Position numbers and translations under genes: made by a program. This document shows, piece after piece, positions 15,190 to 23,673 of a stretch of 64,000 bases of DNA. The stretch is from assembly GCA_030673845.1 (NCBI GenBank), contig JAUTCQ010000001.1, positions 1 to 64,000 on the forward strand, written 5' to 3'. This DNA comes from Verrucomicrobiota bacterium JB022 (lineage in GTDB: Bacteria > Verrucomicrobiota > Verrucomicrobiia > Opitutales > Oceanipulchritudinaceae). The notes below the pieces were generated by a model that did no database searches, was not told the DNA's origin, and worked only from the letters and a program-made list of their open reading frames with translations. How positions within the stretch are numbered: position 1 is the first letter of the stretch; each line of letters starts with the position of its first letter.

Positions 15190-15744
15190 ATGAAGCTTTC
15201 CAAAAAGGCCGAATATGGCTTGCGAGCCCTCATCAACCTGGGAATCGCCCAGGAGGTGGGGCACGACCGGGTGCCAGCCGCTACCCTTGCCACGGCCGAC
15301 AACTTGCCGCTCAAGTTCCTCGAACAGATCCTCCTGCAGCTGCGGGCGGCTGGTTATGTGGACACGGTGCGCGGCAAGAGCGGGGGCTACTTCGCGGCCA
15401 AGCCGACCCGCGAGATCAAGATCGGCGAAATCGTGCGCCTCCTCGACGGGCCGCTGGCCCCCATCGGTTGTGCGAGCAAGACGGCCTACGAGCGCTGCTC
15501 CTGTCCCGACGAAACGCACTGCGGCCTGCGCATGCTCATGATCGACGTTCGCAACGCCGTCTCGAACATCCTCGACCGCTACTCGTTGCACGACGTGGTC
15601 GAGATCACCCTGCGCAAGCTGCGCCGCGACGGGGTAGACCACTACTTTTTGACACCGCAGGACAGCCTGCCGCTGCCGGTTGACCAGGAACGGGCCAACC
15701 CGGCGGACGGCTTCCTCGCCGAACTCACTCGCCCACATGAATGA
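15190..15744 (+). CDS. Rrf2-family transcriptional regulator (CymR/IscR-like)
   Basis: 184 aa. The N-terminus MKLSKKAEYGLRALINLG and KFLEQILLQLRAAGYVDTVRGKSGGY are the Rrf2 winged helix. Cysteines appear as GCASKTAYERCSCPDETHCG, spaced roughly like an Fe-S or thiol-sensing site (C-x7-C-x-C-x5-C) though not exactly IscR's. It leads the sulfate-uptake locus and its stop overlaps the next ORF by 8 nt. By analogy with CymR it probably controls sulfur uptake in response to cysteine or sulfide status; this is inferred from neighbours. Confidence 0.9.
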   Translation: MKLSKKAEYGLRALINLGIAQEVGHDRVPAATLATADNLPLKFLEQILLQLRAAGYVDTVRGKSGGYFAAKPTREIKIGEIVRLLDGPLAPIGCASKTAYERCSCPDETHCGLRMLMIDVRNAVSNILDRYSLHDVVEITLRKLRRDGVDHYFLTPQDSLPLPVDQERANPADGFLAELTRPHE

Positions 15745-15934
15745 TCCATCGCTTTCCTCTCCGGCGGTTTCCGCTCCCGAGCCAGGAACACCGCTGCCCG
15801 ACTGGTTGGAGCTGACCGCCCGCTACGTCGGTGAATTGAGCTACGGACAAGTCACCCTCACGATCCATCAAGGATCGGTGATCGAAGTCCAGAAGACGGA
15901 ACGCACCCGGCTCTCGCCTACCCGGCGCAAGTAG
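15737..15934 (+). CDS. YezD-like small protein (DUF2292)
   Basis: 65 aa from ATG 15737, overlapping the end of the Rrf2 gene and so probably translationally coupled. The core YVGELSYGQVTLTIHQGSVI followed by EVQKTER is the DUF2292/YezD pattern; such peptides are often next to sulfur-assimilation genes. No signal peptide or cysteine is present. The function is unknown. The longer frame starting at 15680 lies inside the Rrf2 gene and is not favoured. Confidence 0.8.
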   Translation: MNDPSLSSPAVSAPEPGTPLPDWLELTARYVGELSYGQVTLTIHQGSVIEVQKTERTRLSPTRRK

Positions 15935-16073: not shown

Positions 16074-17453
16074 ATGCCACACTACCTTGGGCCGCTTTCG
16101 CGCCCATTCTTCCGTAAGCAACTGCTTTTGGCCGCCAGCAGCTTTGCCGCCGTCACTCTAGGCGCACAGCAAAGCCCTGCGCAGGAGGTCGAAGCCCTCA
16201 AAGCCCAGCTCGCGGCGATCCAGAACCGGCTCGCCGCCCTCGAAAGCCAACCGCCACCGGCCCCTGCCGCCCCGAGCAGCAACGTCTCGGTGCAAGTCAA
16301 CCGCCGCGGGCTCGTGGTCGAAGCGACCGACAAGTCGTTCAACATCCGGATCCGCCCCCGCATCCAGGTCGACGGTAACTTCTTCCCGGATGACGACGAC
16401 GGCACCAACGGCTTCACGCTCCGCCGCGTCCGCCCAGTCATCCAAGGCGTCGCCGGCCCCGTCTCCTGGCGCTTCATGCCAGAGCTGGCGGGCACCGTGC
16501 GCATTATCGATGCCTGGGGTGAGTTGGAGCTGACCGATGGCCTCTCGCTGCAGGCGGGCAAGTTCAAGGGCCCCGTCGGCTACGAGCGCCTCCAGTCGTT
16601 CAGCAAGACGCTCTTCATCGAGCGCGGCCTGCCGAGCGTGCTCACGGCCACTCGCGAGATCGGCCTGCAGCTCAACGGCGCGGCGTTCGACGACGTGGTC
16701 TCCTGGAACCTGGGGGTCTATAACGGCACGCTCGACGATACCGACCAGTCCAACAACGCCAACCTGAGCGATGGGTTCGACGTGGCTGCGGGGCTGAGCC
16801 TGCGCCCCTTCGCCCACGCCGAAGACAGCGTATTCCAAGGGCTGACGGTGGGCGTGGCCGGGTCGATCGGCGACGAAAACGTCACCATTGCCGATAGCGA
16901 CCGCGATGCCCGCATCCGCTACCGCACCTCAGGCCGTAACACCTTCTTCCGTTACGCCGACGGGGCGTTGATCGACGGCGATCATACCCGCCTCAACGCC
17001 TACGCCTCCTGGTACTACGGCCCGGTGGGTGTGCTGACCGAGTGGGTCCGCTCGTCCTACGACCTGACGCGGGGGGGAGTGGGCCAATCGGTCGATAGCG
17101 ACGGCTTTACCTTCCAGGTCGGCTGGGTCGTGACGGGCGAAAAGGCCTCTTACGAGGGCGTGCGCCCGAAGAACCCCTTCAACCCGGCCGACGGCCACTG
17201 GGGCGCCTTCGAGCTCGGCCTGCGCTATCACACGCTCGAGGTGGGCGACGAAGCCTTCTCCGGCGATGCCACGACCCGCCTCGCCCGCAACGGCTCGGCC
17301 CAAAAAGCCGAAGGCTACGGCGCAGTCCTCAACTGGACCCTCACCGACAACACCCTGATCGCCCTCGCCTACGAGGTGACGGACTTCTCCGGCCAAGGCG
17401 CCGACCGCTCGACCGAACAAGTCATCCAGACCCGCTTCCAACTCGATTTCTAA
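16074..17453 (+). CDS. O/P-type outer-membrane porin
   Basis: 459 aa. The signal peptide is followed by a short coiled-coil ([20 protein letters not shown]) as in OprP/OprO-type porins. The remainder is alternating beta-strand with [20 protein letters not shown] and [20 protein letters not shown], hallmark blocks of the phosphate-selective porin O/P family, ending in the aromatic QTRFQLDF. It would be a trimeric anion-selective channel. In this operon it most likely passes sulfate or organosulfur anions (inference). ATG 16074 has no SD and abuts a hairpin, so the start is uncertain. Confidence 0.88.
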
Positions 17454-17476: not shown

Positions 17477-18487
17477 ATGAACTTTCGCAAATTGATCTTC
17501 ATGGGCCTCATTTCGGCCCTTACCGCCACCAGCGCCTTCGCGGCCAACCGCACGCTGCTCAATGTGTCTTACGACCCGACCCGGGAGCTCTACGAAGAGT
17601 ACAACCCGTGGTTCCAGAAGCAGTGGAAGGAAAAGACGGGCGACAACCTCACCGTCCGCCAGTCCCACGGCGGGGCGGGCAAGCAGGCCCGTGCCGTGAT
17701 CGACGGCCTCAAGGCCGACGTGGTGACGCTGGCCCTAGCCTACGACATCGACGCCATCGGCGAGCACACCGGCAAGATCCCGGACAACTGGCAGGAGCGT
17801 TTGCCCAACGGCAGCGCCCCCTATACCTCGACCATCGTCTTCCTCGTGCGCAAGGGTAACCCGAAGGGCATCCACGACTGGCCCGACCTCGTGCGCAAGG
17901 GCGTGGAAGTGATCACGCCCAACCCGAAGACCTCCGGCGGCGCACGCTGGAACTATCTCGCCGCCTGGGCCTGGGCCCGCGAAGAATACAAGGGCGACGA
18001 AGCCAAGACGCAGGCTTATGTGACGGAGCTGTTTCGCCACGTGCCGGTGCTCGACTCCGGGGCCCGCGGCTCCACCACCACCTTTGTCCAGCGCGGCATC
18101 GGCGACGTGCTCCTGGCCTGGGAAAACGAAGCCTTCCTGGCCCTTAACGAGCTGGGGCCCGACAAGTTCGAGATCGTGGTGCCTTCGCTCAGCATCCTTG
18201 CCCAGCCGCCGGTGACGGTCGTCGACGGCAATGCCAAGCCCGCCGGTAACCTCGACTTGGCGCAGGCCTACCTCGAAGGGCTCTACTCGCCCGAAGGTCA
18301 ACGCATCGCGGCCAAGAACTACTACCGGCCCTTCAAGCCCGAGTATGCGGACAAGGAAGACCTCGCGCGCTTCCCCGACCTCAAGCTCGTGACCATCGAC
18401 GAGGCCTTCGGTGGCTGGCAGGCCGCCCAAAAGCGCCACTTCAACGACGGCGGCGTCTTCGACCAGATCTACCTGTCCAAGCGCTGA
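17477..18487 (+). CDS. sbp: Sulfate ABC transporter periplasmic binding protein
   Basis: 336 aa with a clear signal peptide ([22 protein letters not shown]). The mature start [18 protein letters not shown], then [22 protein letters not shown] and [19 protein letters not shown], are conserved in Sbp/CysP and carry the sulfate-contacting residues. It delivers sulfate (or thiosulfate) to CysT-CysW-CysA encoded 1.6 kb downstream. It lies 23 nt after the porin and clearly belongs to the same operon. Confidence 0.94.
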
Positions 18488-18558: not shown

Positions 18559-19299
18559 ATGACGCCCTCCACATCGATCACGCCACAAGTCCAGGCCTTG
18601 TTCCAGCTGCTCGTGCAGCGTAGTGAGCGCTCGGACTTCCTCTTCGCCTCCCCGGTGCCCACCCACGCCCTTACTCGCGAAGCCAAGGTGTGCATGTCGC
18701 GGTTCCTTGTTTTTGGGGCCGGGCGGCGTCAGCACCAGGCCCTCGTGGCCCTGTTGGCGGGGGCGGGCAATCAGGACGTGCTGGCCAGCGATTTCATCCT
18801 CCAGTTTGTCGAGCGCCTCTCCCGCCGGCGCGACGATTCCTTCCCGGATCTGGTGGCCTACCCCGGCCTCGACCTCAATACCCGCGAGAATCGGACCGAG
18901 GTGGCGCTCCACGCGCTCGATGTCGACTGGCTGGACCGGGCCGATCCGCTGACCACGGCCCTGATGGCCGATTTTCAACACTTTGTCTACGACGGTTTTG
19001 TAACCGTCCGCTCCAACGCGGGAGTGGTGCACCCTACGGTGCAGTTCCTCGGCTTGCCCGAGAAGCTGGCGCGCTCCTTCGATTCGCAAGGCTGGTTCCA
19101 CTGGTCGTTGCTGTTCGAGAAGCGGCTGCCGGAAAACGGGCCCCTTTCGCTGGGGCCCCTTCTGCCGCGGCGGGCCTTCGAGCTCCGGCTCCACCTGCCG
19201 CTCGTCTTGAGCGATCCCGATTTCGAGGCGTCGCTCGCTGCCCTGCAAACGATCCTCTACCGCTTCGCGGCCCACGCCTCCGAAGCCTACGGCATCTGA
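18559..19299 (+). CDS. Unknown protein with a degenerate M14 carboxypeptidase-like fold, copy A
   Basis: 246 aa from ATG 18559; no signal peptide, predicted cytoplasmic. SRFLVFGAGRRQHQALVALL followed by AGAGNQDVLASDFILQFVER aligns by eye with copy B ([40 protein letters not shown]), and ALMADFQHFVYDGFVTVRSN with the equivalent block of B. The order resembles the M14/succinylglutamate-desuccinylase fold, but the first zinc motif HxxE is absent. It lies between the sulfate-binding protein and its permeases, so a role in sulfate uptake or its control is likely but unproven. Confidence 0.75.
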   Translation: MTPSTSITPQVQALFQLLVQRSERSDFLFASPVPTHALTREAKVCMSRFLVFGAGRRQHQALVALLAGAGNQDVLASDFILQFVERLSRRRDDSFPDLVAYPGLDLNTRENRTEVALHALDVDWLDRADPLTTALMADFQHFVYDGFVTVRSNAGVVHPTVQFLGLPEKLARSFDSQGWFHWSLLFEKRLPENGPLSLGPLLPRRAFELRLHLPLVLSDPDFEASLAALQTILYRFAAHASEAYGI

Positions 19300-19320
19300 A
19301 CCCACTCACCCTTCGATACC

Positions 19321-20058
19321 ATGAAGCACATCGAACATTTGCATCCCGAGTTTCGCGAACAAGCCCGTGCGCTCCTCAGCGGCTTTGTCGAGCACTGCGA
19401 GTTTTCCCGCACGCTCGTCGGCGACATCCGCCACTTCATCCACTTTGGCGGGCGCAAATACGGCCTGCCCATCTTCACGGTCTTCGGCCCGCCACACCCC
19501 GATCTGGAGACCCACTTTATCGGGCTGGTGGGGCACAACCAAGGCCGCGACACCACGCTGCCGGAGATCCTCATGCAGCTGATCGAGCGGCTCGCGCTGC
19601 AGCCCCGCGTGGCGACCGGCACCGTGCTGCGCGTGTTGCCCGTGGCCGACCCGGTGGGCTTCGAAGGCGATGCTGCCGCGAGCCCGGAGCTGGCCGCGTT
19701 GCTCGACCGCCAGATCGACGCCTTCCACACCTCGGCCCTCGACGGCGTAGTGAGCATCCGGACTTCGACCGACGATGCGCTGCATGTGAAAGTGGCCGGC
19801 CCTTCGCCCGTCCGCCAGGCCGTGCGTCGCTCCTGGGACGCCCTCGATCGCCTCCTGTCGGAAGACACCATCGTCGCGGAGGGCGCGAGCCTGCGGCTGT
19901 TGGAAGCCCCCGCCGAAGGCCCCTGGGAAGTGGAAATCGCCGTGCCCCGTAGTTGGGCCTCCAACCTCGCGGTCCACTGGATCAGCCAACTGCTGGTCGT
20001 TTTCCTGCGGGCGCATGCGGAGGCACAACTCCATGCCCTGCCCGAGCTCGCCGAATAA
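19321..20058 (+). CDS. Unknown protein with a degenerate M14 carboxypeptidase-like fold, copy B
   Basis: 245 aa, no signal peptide. [20 protein letters not shown] sits where M14 enzymes have GxHGxE, and [17 protein letters not shown] sits where they have the PxxNPDGxE-type loop. The histidine of GHN remains, but the glutamate ligand is replaced and the later histidine ligand is not evident. It is a paralogue of the preceding gene, 21 nt away, and is followed after 20 nt by cysT. Most likely a non-catalytic binding or regulatory protein; this is inference from lost residues and context. Confidence 0.75.
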
Positions 20059-20078: not shown

Positions 20079-20927
20079 ATGTCATCGACCCCCTCCAACT
20101 ACCCTCGCCGGGCGCGCCTGCCCGGCTTTGGGCTCACGCTGGGGCTCACCCTCAGCTACCTCGGGCTGGTGGTGCTCATCCCGCTTTCCGCCCTGTTTCT
20201 CAAAGCCTCCGGGCTTGGGCTGGGCGGCCTGTGGGCCGAGCTATCGCAGCCTCGGGTGCTGGCCGCGCTCCGGCTTTCGTTCCTCACCGCCTTCATCGCC
20301 GGCCTCGTCAACGTGGTCGGCGGCACGGCGGTGGCCTGGGTGCTCACGCGCTACCAGTTCCCGGGGCGACGCCTGGTGGACGCGGCGATCGACTTGCCGT
20401 TTGCGCTGCCGACTGCCGTCGCGGGCATCTCGCTCACCGCGCTCTACGCCCGCAACGGCTGGTTCGGCTCGGTGCTGGAGCCGCTGGGCCTCAAGGTGGC
20501 GTTTGCGCCCGCCGGTATTGTGATCGCGCTGATCTTCATCGGCCTGCCGTTTGCGGTGCGCACCGTGCAGCCTGTGCTCGAGAATTTCGAGGCTGAGCTG
20601 GAGGAAGCCTCCGCCACGCTGGGCGCGAGCCGCAGCCAGACGATCCGCCGCGTGATCCTGCCGGCCCTGTTGCCCGCGATTCTCACGGGTTTTGCGCTCT
20701 CGTTTGCCCGTGGGGTGGGGGAATACGGCTCGGTCGTCTTTATCTCCGGCAACATGCCGATGCGCACCGAAATCGCGCCCCTGCTCATCATCACCCAGCT
20801 CGAGCAATACAGCTACGAGGGGGCGACGGCCATCGCGGTGGCGATGCTCGTCGTTTCCTTCCTCTGCCTCTTCGTGATCAACCTCCTGCAACGCTGGGCC
20901 AGCCGCCGCCTCGGCCATAGCGCCTAA
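20079..20927 (+). CDS. cysT: Sulfate ABC transporter permease CysT (CysU)
   Basis: 282 aa from ATG 20079, inner-membrane protein with about six transmembrane helices. [20 protein letters not shown] is conserved in CysT. The EAA loop reads [20 protein letters not shown] and contacts Cys[20 protein letters not shown] is a further family motif. The frame is open upstream to 19953, but that part overlaps copy B and lacks similarity. Confidence 0.95.
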
Positions 20928-20949: not shown

Positions 20950-21870
20950 ATGGCAGGTTCCCTACCATCCTTTAGCCGCCGCAGCGGCCCCGCCCGGGCG
21001 GTCGACGACCCCCGCTGGCTACGCTGGTCGCTGTTCGGCTTCGTTTTCACCTTTCTGGTGCTCGTGCTCGTGGCTCCCTTGGGCGCCGTATTTGCCGAGG
21101 CCTTTCGCAAGGGCGTCGAGCTGTTTTGCGCGACCTTTCAGGATCCCGACGCGCAACATGCGATTTACCTGACGCTGCTCGTGGCGGTGATCAGTGTGCC
21201 GCTCAACCTCGTGTTCGGCCTGGTGGCCAGCTGGCTGATCGCCAAGCACGACTTTGCGGGCAAGAGCTTCCTGCTCACGCTGATCGACTTGCCCTTCTCG
21301 GTCTCGCCGGTGATCGCGGGCCTGATCTTCGTGCTGCTCTTTGGCGCGCACGGTTTTCTGGGCCCCTGGCTCGATTCGATGGGCGTGCAGATCGTTTTTG
21401 CGGTGCCGGGCATCGTGCTGGCGACCGTCTTCATCACCTTCCCCTTTGTCGCGCGTGAGCTGATCCCAGCGATGCAGGCCACCGGGCGCGAGGAAGAGCA
21501 GGCCGCCTACCTCCTGGGCGCGAGCGGCTGGCAGATCTTCTGGCGCGTCACCCTGCCCAACGTGCGCTGGGCATTGCTCTACGGCGTGCTGCTCTGCAAT
21601 GCGCGGGCCATGGGCGAGTTCGGTGCCGTCTCGGTCGTCTCCGGCCACATCCGGGGCATGACCAACACCGTGCCGCTGCACGTCGAGATTCTTTACAACG
21701 AATACAATTTCGTGGCCGCCTTCGCCATGGCGACATCTCTGGCGCTGCTGGCCCTCCTCACCCTCGCGGGCAAGTCGCTGATCGAATGGCGCCTCGCCCG
21801 CAACGCCGAGCTGCGCGAGAAGATGCGCCGGCCCGACAACACGCCCCTCCATCAGCTTTCCGTATCATGA
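20950..21870 (+). CDS. cysW: Sulfate ABC transporter permease CysW
   Basis: 306 aa, six or so membrane helices. [20 protein letters not shown], the EAA-type loop [20 protein letters not shown] and [19 protein letters not shown] identify CysW, the partner of CysT. It begins 22 nt after cysT, and its stop codon overlaps the cysA start (ATGA), indicating translational coupling. Confidence 0.95.
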
Positions 21871-22922
21871 GCATCGAAGCCCTCAACATCTCCAAGACCT
21901 TCGGCACGACCAAGGCGCTCAACGACGTGTCTCTGCACGTGAAGAAGGGCAACCTTGTGGCGCTCGTCGGCCCCTCCGGCTCGGGCAAGACAACCCTGCT
22001 CCGCATCCTGGCGGGCCTCGAAACGCCCGACCGCGGCAGCGGTGCCCTGCGCTTCCACGGCGAAGACGTCAGCCACACCACGGCGCGCGAACGCCGCGTG
22101 GGCATGGTCTTCCAGCACTACGCGCTCTTTCGCCACATGACGGTGGCCGACAACATCGCCTTCGGCCTCACCGTGCGCAAGGCCAAGGAGCGACCGGCGC
22201 GCGACGAGATCCGGGACCGCGTGCAGGAGCTGCTGCGCCTCGTGCAGCTCGCCGATTATGGCAACCGCCTGCCGCACCAGCTCTCGGGCGGTCAACGGCA
22301 ACGGGTCGCGCTGGCCCGCGCGCTGGCGATCCGCCCCGGCATCCTGTTGCTCGACGAGCCCTTCGGCGCGCTCGACGCCAAGGTGCGCAAGGACTTGCGC
22401 CGCTGGCTGCGCCAGTTCCACGAAGAGATTCAGTTGACGACCGTCTTCGTCACCCACGACCAGGAGGAAGCGCTGGAGCTGGCCGACGAGGTGGTGGTGA
22501 TGAACCAGGCGAAGATCGAGCAGGTCGGCCCGCCGCAGGAAGTCTTCGACCATCCCGAGTCGCCCTTCGTGATCGAGTTCATGGGCAACGTCAATCGCGT
22601 CACCGCCGGGCTCGGCCACGTGCGGATCGACTCCAAGGAGAGCCTCTACGTGCGCCCGCACGACATCGAGCTGCTGGAGCAGCCCGGCAAGACGGGCGTC
22701 GACGCGCGCGTGCTCCATATCTTCTCCGCCGGCAGCGTCGGGCGAGTGACGCTGGAACGCGTGGGTGCGGGCGAGATCCTCGAAGCCGAAGTGCCGCGGG
22801 CGGAGCTCGACCACCTCAAGCTCAAGACCGGGCAAGTGGTGGGCCTGCGCTTCCGCCACATTCGGCTTTTTGCCACCGGCGCGGAGGGTCGCCGCCAGTT
22901 GGTGGAGCAGGAGGTCGGCTGA
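21867..22922 (+). CDS. cysA: Sulfate ABC transporter ATP-binding protein
   Basis: 351 aa from ATG 21867, overlapping the cysW stop by 4 nt. Walker A is [12 protein letters not shown], the Q-loop lies in [10 protein letters not shown], the ABC signature is [15 protein letters not shown], and Walker B is [12 protein letters not shown]. The H-loop is [17 protein letters not shown]-terminal TOBE-like region (from about residue 255) follows. It powers sulfate/thiosulfate import and is the last gene of the operon; a strong hairpin follows. Confidence 0.95.
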
Positions 22923-23031: not shown

Positions 23032-23673
23032 ATGTCTAAGATTATCATGATTATCGGCGCCGCTTTGCTCGGCGCCATTTCGTCTCATTCCGTCTCCGCC
23101 TCCGTAAACATCCTCGGGAATTACCCGCCGGCCAACGACTACTTCAGCAGCACGATTTCCGCTGGGGTTGGCCAGAAAGGAGTGCTCTTTACCATGCCGG
23201 AGCTCAGCTACACCGTCGATGCCGTTACGCTGCAGTTGGGCGGCTACAACTCATCCTTCGATACGGCAGCCATTGGCTTTTATGCCGATAGCGAGGGCAT
23301 GCCTGACGCCTTGGTGGGCATGTTGCAGGCTCCTTCCTCCGATTCCGATACGATCGCAGACTTCACCTTCACGCCCACCTCGACCCTGACGCTCTCCGCC
23401 AACACGACCTACTGGCTCATGATCGACACCACCGCAGGCGGTTTTGACTGGATGGCGGCGCATATTGAAAGTACGCCGGGTGGTGAGGCTACCTACCTGG
23501 GCCACTACTTCTCCAACACCAATGGCGCGACTTACGGTGGCTCGAGCACGTTGAACACCTTCCAGATACTGGGCACGGAAGTCGCAGCCGTCCCGGAACC
23601 GGCGGAATACGCGGCCCTGCTTGGCCTCGGCACGCTCGGCTTTGTCGCCTGGCGCCGCCGTCGCAACGCATAG
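23032..23673 (+). CDS. PEP-CTERM sorting-domain protein (choice-of-anchor type)
   Basis: 213 aa. A signal peptide (MSKIIMIIGAALLGAISSHSVSA) precedes a beta-rich extracellular domain with YTVDAVTLQLGGYN and TTYWLMIDTTAGGFDWM, a pattern seen in choice-of-anchor exported domains. The C-terminus VPEPAEYAALLGLGTLGFVA then RRRRNA is the PEP-CTERM signal: VPEP, hydrophobic span, arginine cluster. It would be processed by an exosortase (none in the window) and displayed on the surface or in the matrix. Upstream tandem repeats and a downstream terminator make it a single-gene unit. Confidence 0.88.
   Translation: MSKIIMIIGAALLGAISSHSVSASVNILGNYPPANDYFSSTISAGVGQKGVLFTMPELSYTVDAVTLQLGGYNSSFDTAAIGFYADSEGMPDALVGMLQAPSSDSDTIADFTFTPTSTLTLSANTTYWLMIDTTAGGFDWMAAHIESTPGGEATYLGHYFSNTNGATYGGSSTLNTFQILGTEVAAVPEPAEYAALLGLGTLGFVAWRRRRNA

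Follow-up and report, generated by a model that had tools for sequence, protein, structure and literature searches.

The closest described relatives of the genes considered here are the Shewanella M14-type N-acetyl-ornithine deacetylase (model NF052223) and the AstE/aspartoacylase catalytic domain (PF24827). Loss of the metal site is known in the M14 group from animals, where CPX-1, CPX-2 and AEBP1 have kept the fold and are presumed to have lost catalysis. On the regulatory side, CymR, the cysteine repressor of Bacillus subtilis, is a member of the Rrf2 family. A metabolic enzyme, CysK, serves as its protein co-regulator (accessible part of PMC11487621). N-acetylserine, which arises spontaneously from the substrate of CysK, O-acetylserine, is the inducer of CysB in enteric bacteria (according to the available portion of PMC11329422), and a Bacillus N-acetylcysteine deacetylase shows 2.8% activity on N-acetylserine (from the part of PMC12757645 that was accessible). 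We analysed two adjoining genes, A and B, of Verrucomicrobiota bacterium JB022, which lie inside a sulfate-uptake operon in the window (the whole 64,000-nucleotide stretch of DNA under study) and whose products very probably belong to the AstE/aspartoacylase-like M14 family, as members that have lost the zinc site.

The transporter genes sbp, cysT, cysW and cysA were named by NCBIfam, each scoring above the cut-off of at least one model (Table 1), and the small DUF2292 protein encoded upstream is presumably the one called OscA. A and B stand between sbp and cysT on the same strand, with gaps of 71 nt (sbp–A), 21 nt (A–B) and 20 nt (B–cysT, counted to the ATG at 20079 as the cysT start), in agreement with the sequence-only reading, which had assigned both to the operon by their tight spacing. 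Third-position G+C is 0.837 in A and in B, slightly below the 0.856–0.909 of the neighbouring genes; since these values are coding-like, both were read as coding. No long hydrophobic stretch occurs in either protein, the 19-residue hydropathy maxima being 1.18 for A and 1.28 for B versus 2.85 for CysT, which fits the cytoplasmic location also proposed for them from sequence. Between positions 17400 and 20200, no promoter-like site was found, and the three terminator-like matches, compared to 2.1 expected from shuffles, included two on the + strand, one inside A and one inside B. Just 3′ of the operon, positions 23032–23673 encode a protein with a PEP-CTERM sorting tail (PF07589, 8.5e-05).

Table 1. 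Features of the JB022 sulfate-uptake operon (positions in the window).
Feature	Position	Strand	Length	Match
Rrf2-family regulator	15190..15744	+		PF02082 3.5e-32
OscA-like small protein, start codon unsure	15680..15934	+		DUF2292 match inside ORF, PF10055 3e-09
Porin O/P-like outer-membrane protein	16074..17453	+		PF07396 1.5e-33
sbp, sulfate-binding protein	17477..18487	+		NF008022 503.8 bits, above cut-off
Copy A, zinc-less AstE/AspA-like (M14-fold), A-like branch	18559..19299	+	246 aa	
Copy B, zinc-less AstE/AspA-like (M14-fold), B-like branch	19321..20058	+	245 aa	
cysT, sulfate permease	20079..20927	+		TIGR02139 403.8 bits, above cut-off
cysW, sulfate permease	20950..21870	+		TIGR02140 399.7 bits, above cut-off
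cysA, sulfate transporter ATPase	21867..22922	+		TIGR00968 377.8 bits, above cut-off

Taken singly, the A and B sequences matched no family in Pfam and NCBIfam scans, AstE and M14 Pfam families included, and a hit of A to DUF6621 (E 0.099) was set aside as fortuitous; phmmer of A or B alone against the PDB gave no usable match, and a direct BLAST of A against B found no significant similarity (best E 2.3). Kinship emerged from comparison of families. In two relatives, the equivalent place holds a B orthologue (39% identity in G003, 36% in G054) and, as second protein, an M14 hydrolase of the AstE/aspartoacylase type in which the HGNE or HGDE motif is intact, hereafter the intact sibling. The intact siblings of two relatives scored 32.5 and 26.1 bits against PF24827, where the cut-off is 25, and the best PDB sequence matches of the intact sibling family are 2qvp, 3b2y and 3ieh (3.8e-16 to 2.4e-13). 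With profiles of the three families (10 A-like, 11 B-like and 21 intact proteins), hhalign, whose E-values here are each for one comparison, matched the A-family to the B-family at 9.8e-18 over 232 columns, the A-family to the intact family at 7.9e-31 and the B-family to the intact family at 3.4e-13, and the matches cover most of the length. The A-family/B-family alignment pairs FGAG with FGPP and GAGNQD with GHNQGRD, in accord with the earlier alignment by eye. The paralogy of A and B suggested earlier from a by-eye alignment is thus upheld by the family profiles, but not by BLAST of the two sequences.

The predicted model of A (pLDDT 82.6, pTM 0.84) had 3ieh as its best Foldseek match (E 3.2e-10) and, in a structural alignment (VIA) run for A alone, gave Z 17.4 to 4b6z_D with an rmsd of 3.5 over 232 aligned residues. 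That of B (pLDDT 79.4, pTM 0.80) had 3b2y as its best match (E 4.8e-10), with a looser overlay (TM 0.54, rmsd 7.5). M14 structures ranked first for each protein, as the sequence-only reading had anticipated in calling both M14-like, and both are predicted to share the M14 (AstE/aspartoacylase-type) alpha/beta fold; because intact siblings were included in the folding alignments, the models support the M14 assignment but are not independent proof of it.

We compared the aligned positions that we take, from M14 enzymes, to provide the zinc ligands and the catalytic Glu. In these alignment columns, the His, Glu and third His of the zinc site are replaced by G70, D73 and R151 in A and by Q74, D77 and R147 in B, so that the lost HxxE site reported before is confirmed and extends to all three ligands in both copies. 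Neither A nor B keeps the Asn or the Arg of the presumed carboxylate clamp, a role that we carry over from carboxypeptidases. After removal of repeats and of fragments shorter than 215 aa, which also preceded the tree, the zinc-less clade comprised 41 distinct copies, with the triad kept in none, the clamp Asn in none and the following Arg in five; in the intact group (122 distinct copies, defined by possession of the zinc triad), the Asn is present in 122 copies, the Arg after it in 120 and a further Arg in 121. The commonest swap of the triad in the clade is Asp-Asp-Glu (16/41), found in A-like copies such as L130:7170-7991; Asp or Glu occupies the second triad position in 34 of the 41, and the catalytic Glu position is still Glu in 28. 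With zinc ligands and clamp residues absent, A and B still appear, judged by their sequences, to be non-catalytic. Three further copies, L089:8287-9030, L203:8700-9536 and L082:8988-9794, with triads HEF, NER and RDL, lost zinc ligands independently of the main clade.

In a maximum-likelihood tree of 83 rows (quick search, intact group thinned to 37, the independent losses L082, L203 and L089 not counted among the 41), the 41 zinc-less rows, A and B among them, formed one branch, separate from the intact siblings, with SH-aLRT support of 100. The longest end branch (2.29) leads to A, for which no sequence in the tree exceeds 28% identity, leaving its exact place unsure. Across 24 close zinc-less pairs from relatives, A and B themselves not being among them, dN/dS was 0.106–0.312, where pairs share members and dS is often about 1 or above. 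Intact copies from the same genomes gave similar values: for zinc-less versus intact, dN/dS was 0.129 versus 0.172 (L154/L087) and 0.109 versus 0.157 (L138/L141), but 0.120 versus 0.074 (L145/L148). The zinc-less copies are one old lineage, and the codon comparisons suggest purifying selection on it in relatives.

A scan of one genome per species (84,980 species) yielded 331 relatives of the intact sibling, the best 80 of which were taken as named loci; by their titles, 78 of these 80 come from Verrucomicrobiota groups, and two are a 'Proteobacteria bacterium' and an 'uncultured bacterium'. In 68 of the best 80 loci, an sbp, cysT, cysW or cysA gene is found on the same strand no more than 5 kb away, and in 76 the neighbours include sbp/cysTWA or cysK/oscA. 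The view that standard sulfate operons lack such genes consequently fails in this class, where a triad-intact sibling is a frequent neighbour of sbp/cysTWA. A copy without the triad accompanies the intact one in 25 of the 80 (23 of the main clade, one broken into two frames at L172 and the separate loss at L203). In a second set of 56 loci, reduced to 54 because L089 and L097 hold no full-triad copy, 40 have sbp/cysTWA, 44 when cysK/oscA are included, and 10 a copy without the triad (nine plus the separate loss L082); the two sets overlap (L130, for instance, is the G278 contig), are non-random, having been chosen by similarity or by hand, and include many loci cut by contig ends.

Counts were also made by genome. 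Among 384 genomes of the class, CysT scored above cut-off in 95 of the 118 with the intact sibling versus 64 of the 266 without (Fisher p 1e-25, ignoring shared ancestry), the 118 being delimited at E 3.4e-28, above a gap to 4.5e-22. Seen from the transporter, 95 of 159 CysT-bearing genomes carry the intact sibling and 64 do not, and 23 of the 118 sibling-bearing genomes have no CysT above cut-off. Across 288 genomes of the phylum, all 18 matches at 1e-30 fall in the class of JB022. For 17 of 21 zinc-less copies, cysT is no more than 5 kb away (9/10 A-like, 8/11 B-like), in a tally whose list is incomplete and most of whose members were themselves in the profiles. The exceptions are G029, G237, G320 and G159: for three of the 11 B-like copies, cysT is on a different contig or over 5 kb away, and the single unlinked A-like copy of the 10 (L010:6126-6941, G029) lies apart from any cys gene. 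Two family members outside the tally were found, one adjoining cysA in G265 (1.2e-15) and a weak one beyond cysA in G101 (3.2e-5). The expectation that homologues neighbour sulfate genes is hence borne out as a linkage, for zinc-less and intact copies alike, but not as a constant one, given the unlinked copies and the other cys neighbours described below.

Natural losses bear on what the genes may do. The congener G001 has the Rrf2–oscA–porin–sbp–cysTWA operon with no trace of A or B, and we therefore rejected the idea that these are subunits of the standard CysTWA–Sbp transporter, since they are not present wherever the transporter is. Among 20 cysT loci hand-picked from the 64 genomes with CysT but without the intact sibling, 18, G001 included, lacked any family member at E 1e-2 within the stretch covered; in three of these 18 genomes, a zinc-less gene lies elsewhere (about 11 kb away in G237, about 27 kb away in G320, on another contig in G029). 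Of the intact hydrolase that lies between B and cysT, G005 retains only a stub of the C-terminal 32 residues (L008:4224-4331), next to a whole B with dN/dS of 0.21 against that of G003. Zinc-less copies also occur without an intact sibling in JB022, G230, G029 and six genomes of family f30. A sibling-profile search of the JB022 genome (97% complete) found no displaced intact sibling of this type. It returned two other M14-like genes, at 1.6e-24 and 2.2e-16 compared to 8.5e-45 or better for the 18 phylum matches, which were rejected as displaced siblings for their far lower scores and their position apart in the tree; they lie together beyond a branch of support 99 that was also used as the root, so that their outside standing is partly a choice. 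On JB022 contig C16, an M14-like hydrolase gene with an HGDE motif (L210:1447-2286) directly adjoins an NAD kinase gene (Pfam NAD_kinase).

Several loci place the family with cysteine genes away from the transporter. At L144, L127, L175 (where the left flank spans only 1.3 kb), L199 and L206, the intact sibling has as neighbours cysK, or Rrf2 and Cys/Met PLP genes, with no sbp/cysTWA seen in the stretch covered. At L138, a dead-plus-intact pair lies between a DUF2292 (OscA-like) gene and a Cys/Met PLP gene, with cysK following after 2 kb and the contig ending at 2.7 kb, and at L149 such a pair adjoins a DUF2292 gene; no sbp/cysTWA were seen around either pair in the stretch covered. These settings connect the family with cysteine synthesis no less than with import. 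In NCBIfam, the G054 sibling matches the N-acetyl-ornithine deacetylase model best (1.8e-9, 37.2 bits with a cut-off of 400), and the G003 sibling matches MpaA, a murein peptide amidase, best (2.9e-5), with the deacetylase model second (7.1e-5). With curated models this far under cut-off, and with the neighbourhood, a deacylase activity of the intact sibling is putative.

On these grounds, we favour the explanation that A and B, as cytoplasmic pseudoenzymes, descend from an M14 hydrolase of the AstE/aspartoacylase type that is common in the sulfate-uptake and cysteine-synthesis operons of this verrucomicrobial class, and that they act as regulators; for this explanation as a whole, we put the chances at about even. 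The intact sibling would deacylate a small N-acyl amino acid that forms as O-acetylserine accumulates, which might salvage serine or clear a sulfur-starvation signal. N-acetylserine is the first candidate substrate, proposed from neighbourhood and analogy, although we consider this particular assignment improbable. In the zinc-less copies, the old mode of substrate binding would be gone and action would be through protein contacts, making them a possible sulfur-status regulator of the cys operon with the Rrf2 regulator, CysK or CysA as potential partners; in JB022, A and B would do so alone, probably as a pair. As metal and clamp are both lost, it is unlikely that the same ligand is read in the same way, and a protein-level regulator is our best guess, while a regulatory role of A and B through protein contacts is itself a tentative proposal, somewhat doubtful in our estimate. 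The involvement of Rrf2 is likewise put forward by analogy and from the neighbourhood. A broader version, in which a cysteine-regulon module of many Verrucomicrobiota couples an AstE-like deacylase acting on an acyl-amino-acid signal, N-acetylserine for example, to a zinc-less twin as reader or Rrf2 co-regulator, and in which the JB022 lineage lost the enzyme and two twins took over, seems to us unlikely as a complete scheme.

The sequence-only reading had instead suggested that the pair gates the transporter or senses its substrate. This is weakly supported, given the G001 operon without both genes and the L138 and L149 pairs without sbp/cysTWA in view; moreover, the residues that would hold the carboxylate of a substrate have gone along with the zinc, and metabolite sensing would need a new site because the clamp is lost throughout the clade. 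A specific form of gating, in which A and B bind the transporter, for instance at CysA, and adjust sulfate import to sulfur status, would account for their position between sbp and cysT with short gaps, for the proximity of cysT (within 5 kb) to 17 of the 21 zinc-less copies tallied, and for a B-like gene directly 3′ of cysA in G338 and a family member at the cysA 3′ end in G265. However, no family member was seen in the stretch covered at G001 and 17 of the 19 other sampled cysT loci lacking the intact sibling, dead-plus-intact pairs occur with no sbp/cysTWA seen, and an enzyme-like intact sibling occupies the same niche, so we rate this form as quite unlikely. An association with the enzyme rather than the transporter, the zinc-less protein serving the intact hydrolase next to it as activator or non-catalytic subunit and the JB022 copies being a remnant after enzyme loss, is a little less unlikely: the two occur together in the 25 of 80 and 10 of 54 intact-copy loci given above, and the zinc-less gene is often directly upstream. 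Nonetheless, the persistence of zinc-less copies without an intact sibling (JB022, G230, G029 and the six f30 genomes) argues against a role only as its subunit, as does G005, where B is whole, at a dN/dS of 0.21, beside a stub of the enzyme.

The residues left at the old active site might be read differently, as those of neofunctionalised enzymes with a new active site, for the Asp, Asp and Glu of most Opitutia A-like copies could bind another metal. The Asp-Asp-Glu swap in 16/41, the acidic second position in 34/41 and the Glu retained at the catalytic position in 28/41 speak for such a site, but the triad reads G-D-R in A and Q-D-R in B, and B-like copies vary at these positions, leaving new catalysis about as improbable as gating through CysA. 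A might alternatively be a decaying gene, only B being functional, and its longest end branch together with the lack of relatives above 28% identity would suit decay. Yet its open frame is full-length (weak evidence alone in such GC-rich DNA), its third-position G+C is coding-like, and it has a near full-length profile match (A being itself in the profile) and a confident predicted fold, making decay the least probable of these readings.

Searches of the literature on AstE/aspartoacylase or pseudoenzymes with sulfate transport, Verrucomicrobia or Shewanella, most subscription papers lying outside them, found no description of such genes. They amount to a component of sulfur assimilation that is widespread in a large bacterial class and for which the literature searched held no description, and they include an old pseudoenzyme lineage often kept beside its active sibling: a pseudoenzyme lineage of known fold in an unexpected, conserved place. 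With the natural losses (G001 with neither gene, G005 with B and a stub, JB022 with two dead copies), experiments could tell what the enzyme does from what the pseudoenzyme does. The genes also raise the testable question of how Rrf2-linked cys operons read an acetyl-serine signal, a task performed in enteric bacteria by CysB with N-acetylserine, and point to an overlooked step or control point in the cysteine synthesis of these bacteria.

Compared to the described systems, A and B resemble each in part. The structures 2qvp, 3b2y and 3ieh, probably what NF052223 names, recur among the top fold matches of A and B, which differ from the Shewanella deacetylase in having neither metal ligands nor clamp; the two intact siblings scanned score 37.2 and 22.1 of the 400 bits set for that model, and siblings sit in cys operons. 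Intact siblings pass the cut-off for PF24827, whereas A and B have no match to it and no zinc site. CPX-1, CPX-2 and AEBP1 differ in their animal hosts and are not known to have an operon link. As a precedent for a metabolic enzyme turned co-regulator, CymR–CysK differs in that CysK is active and of another fold, while contact of A or B with an Rrf2 regulator is a proposal only.
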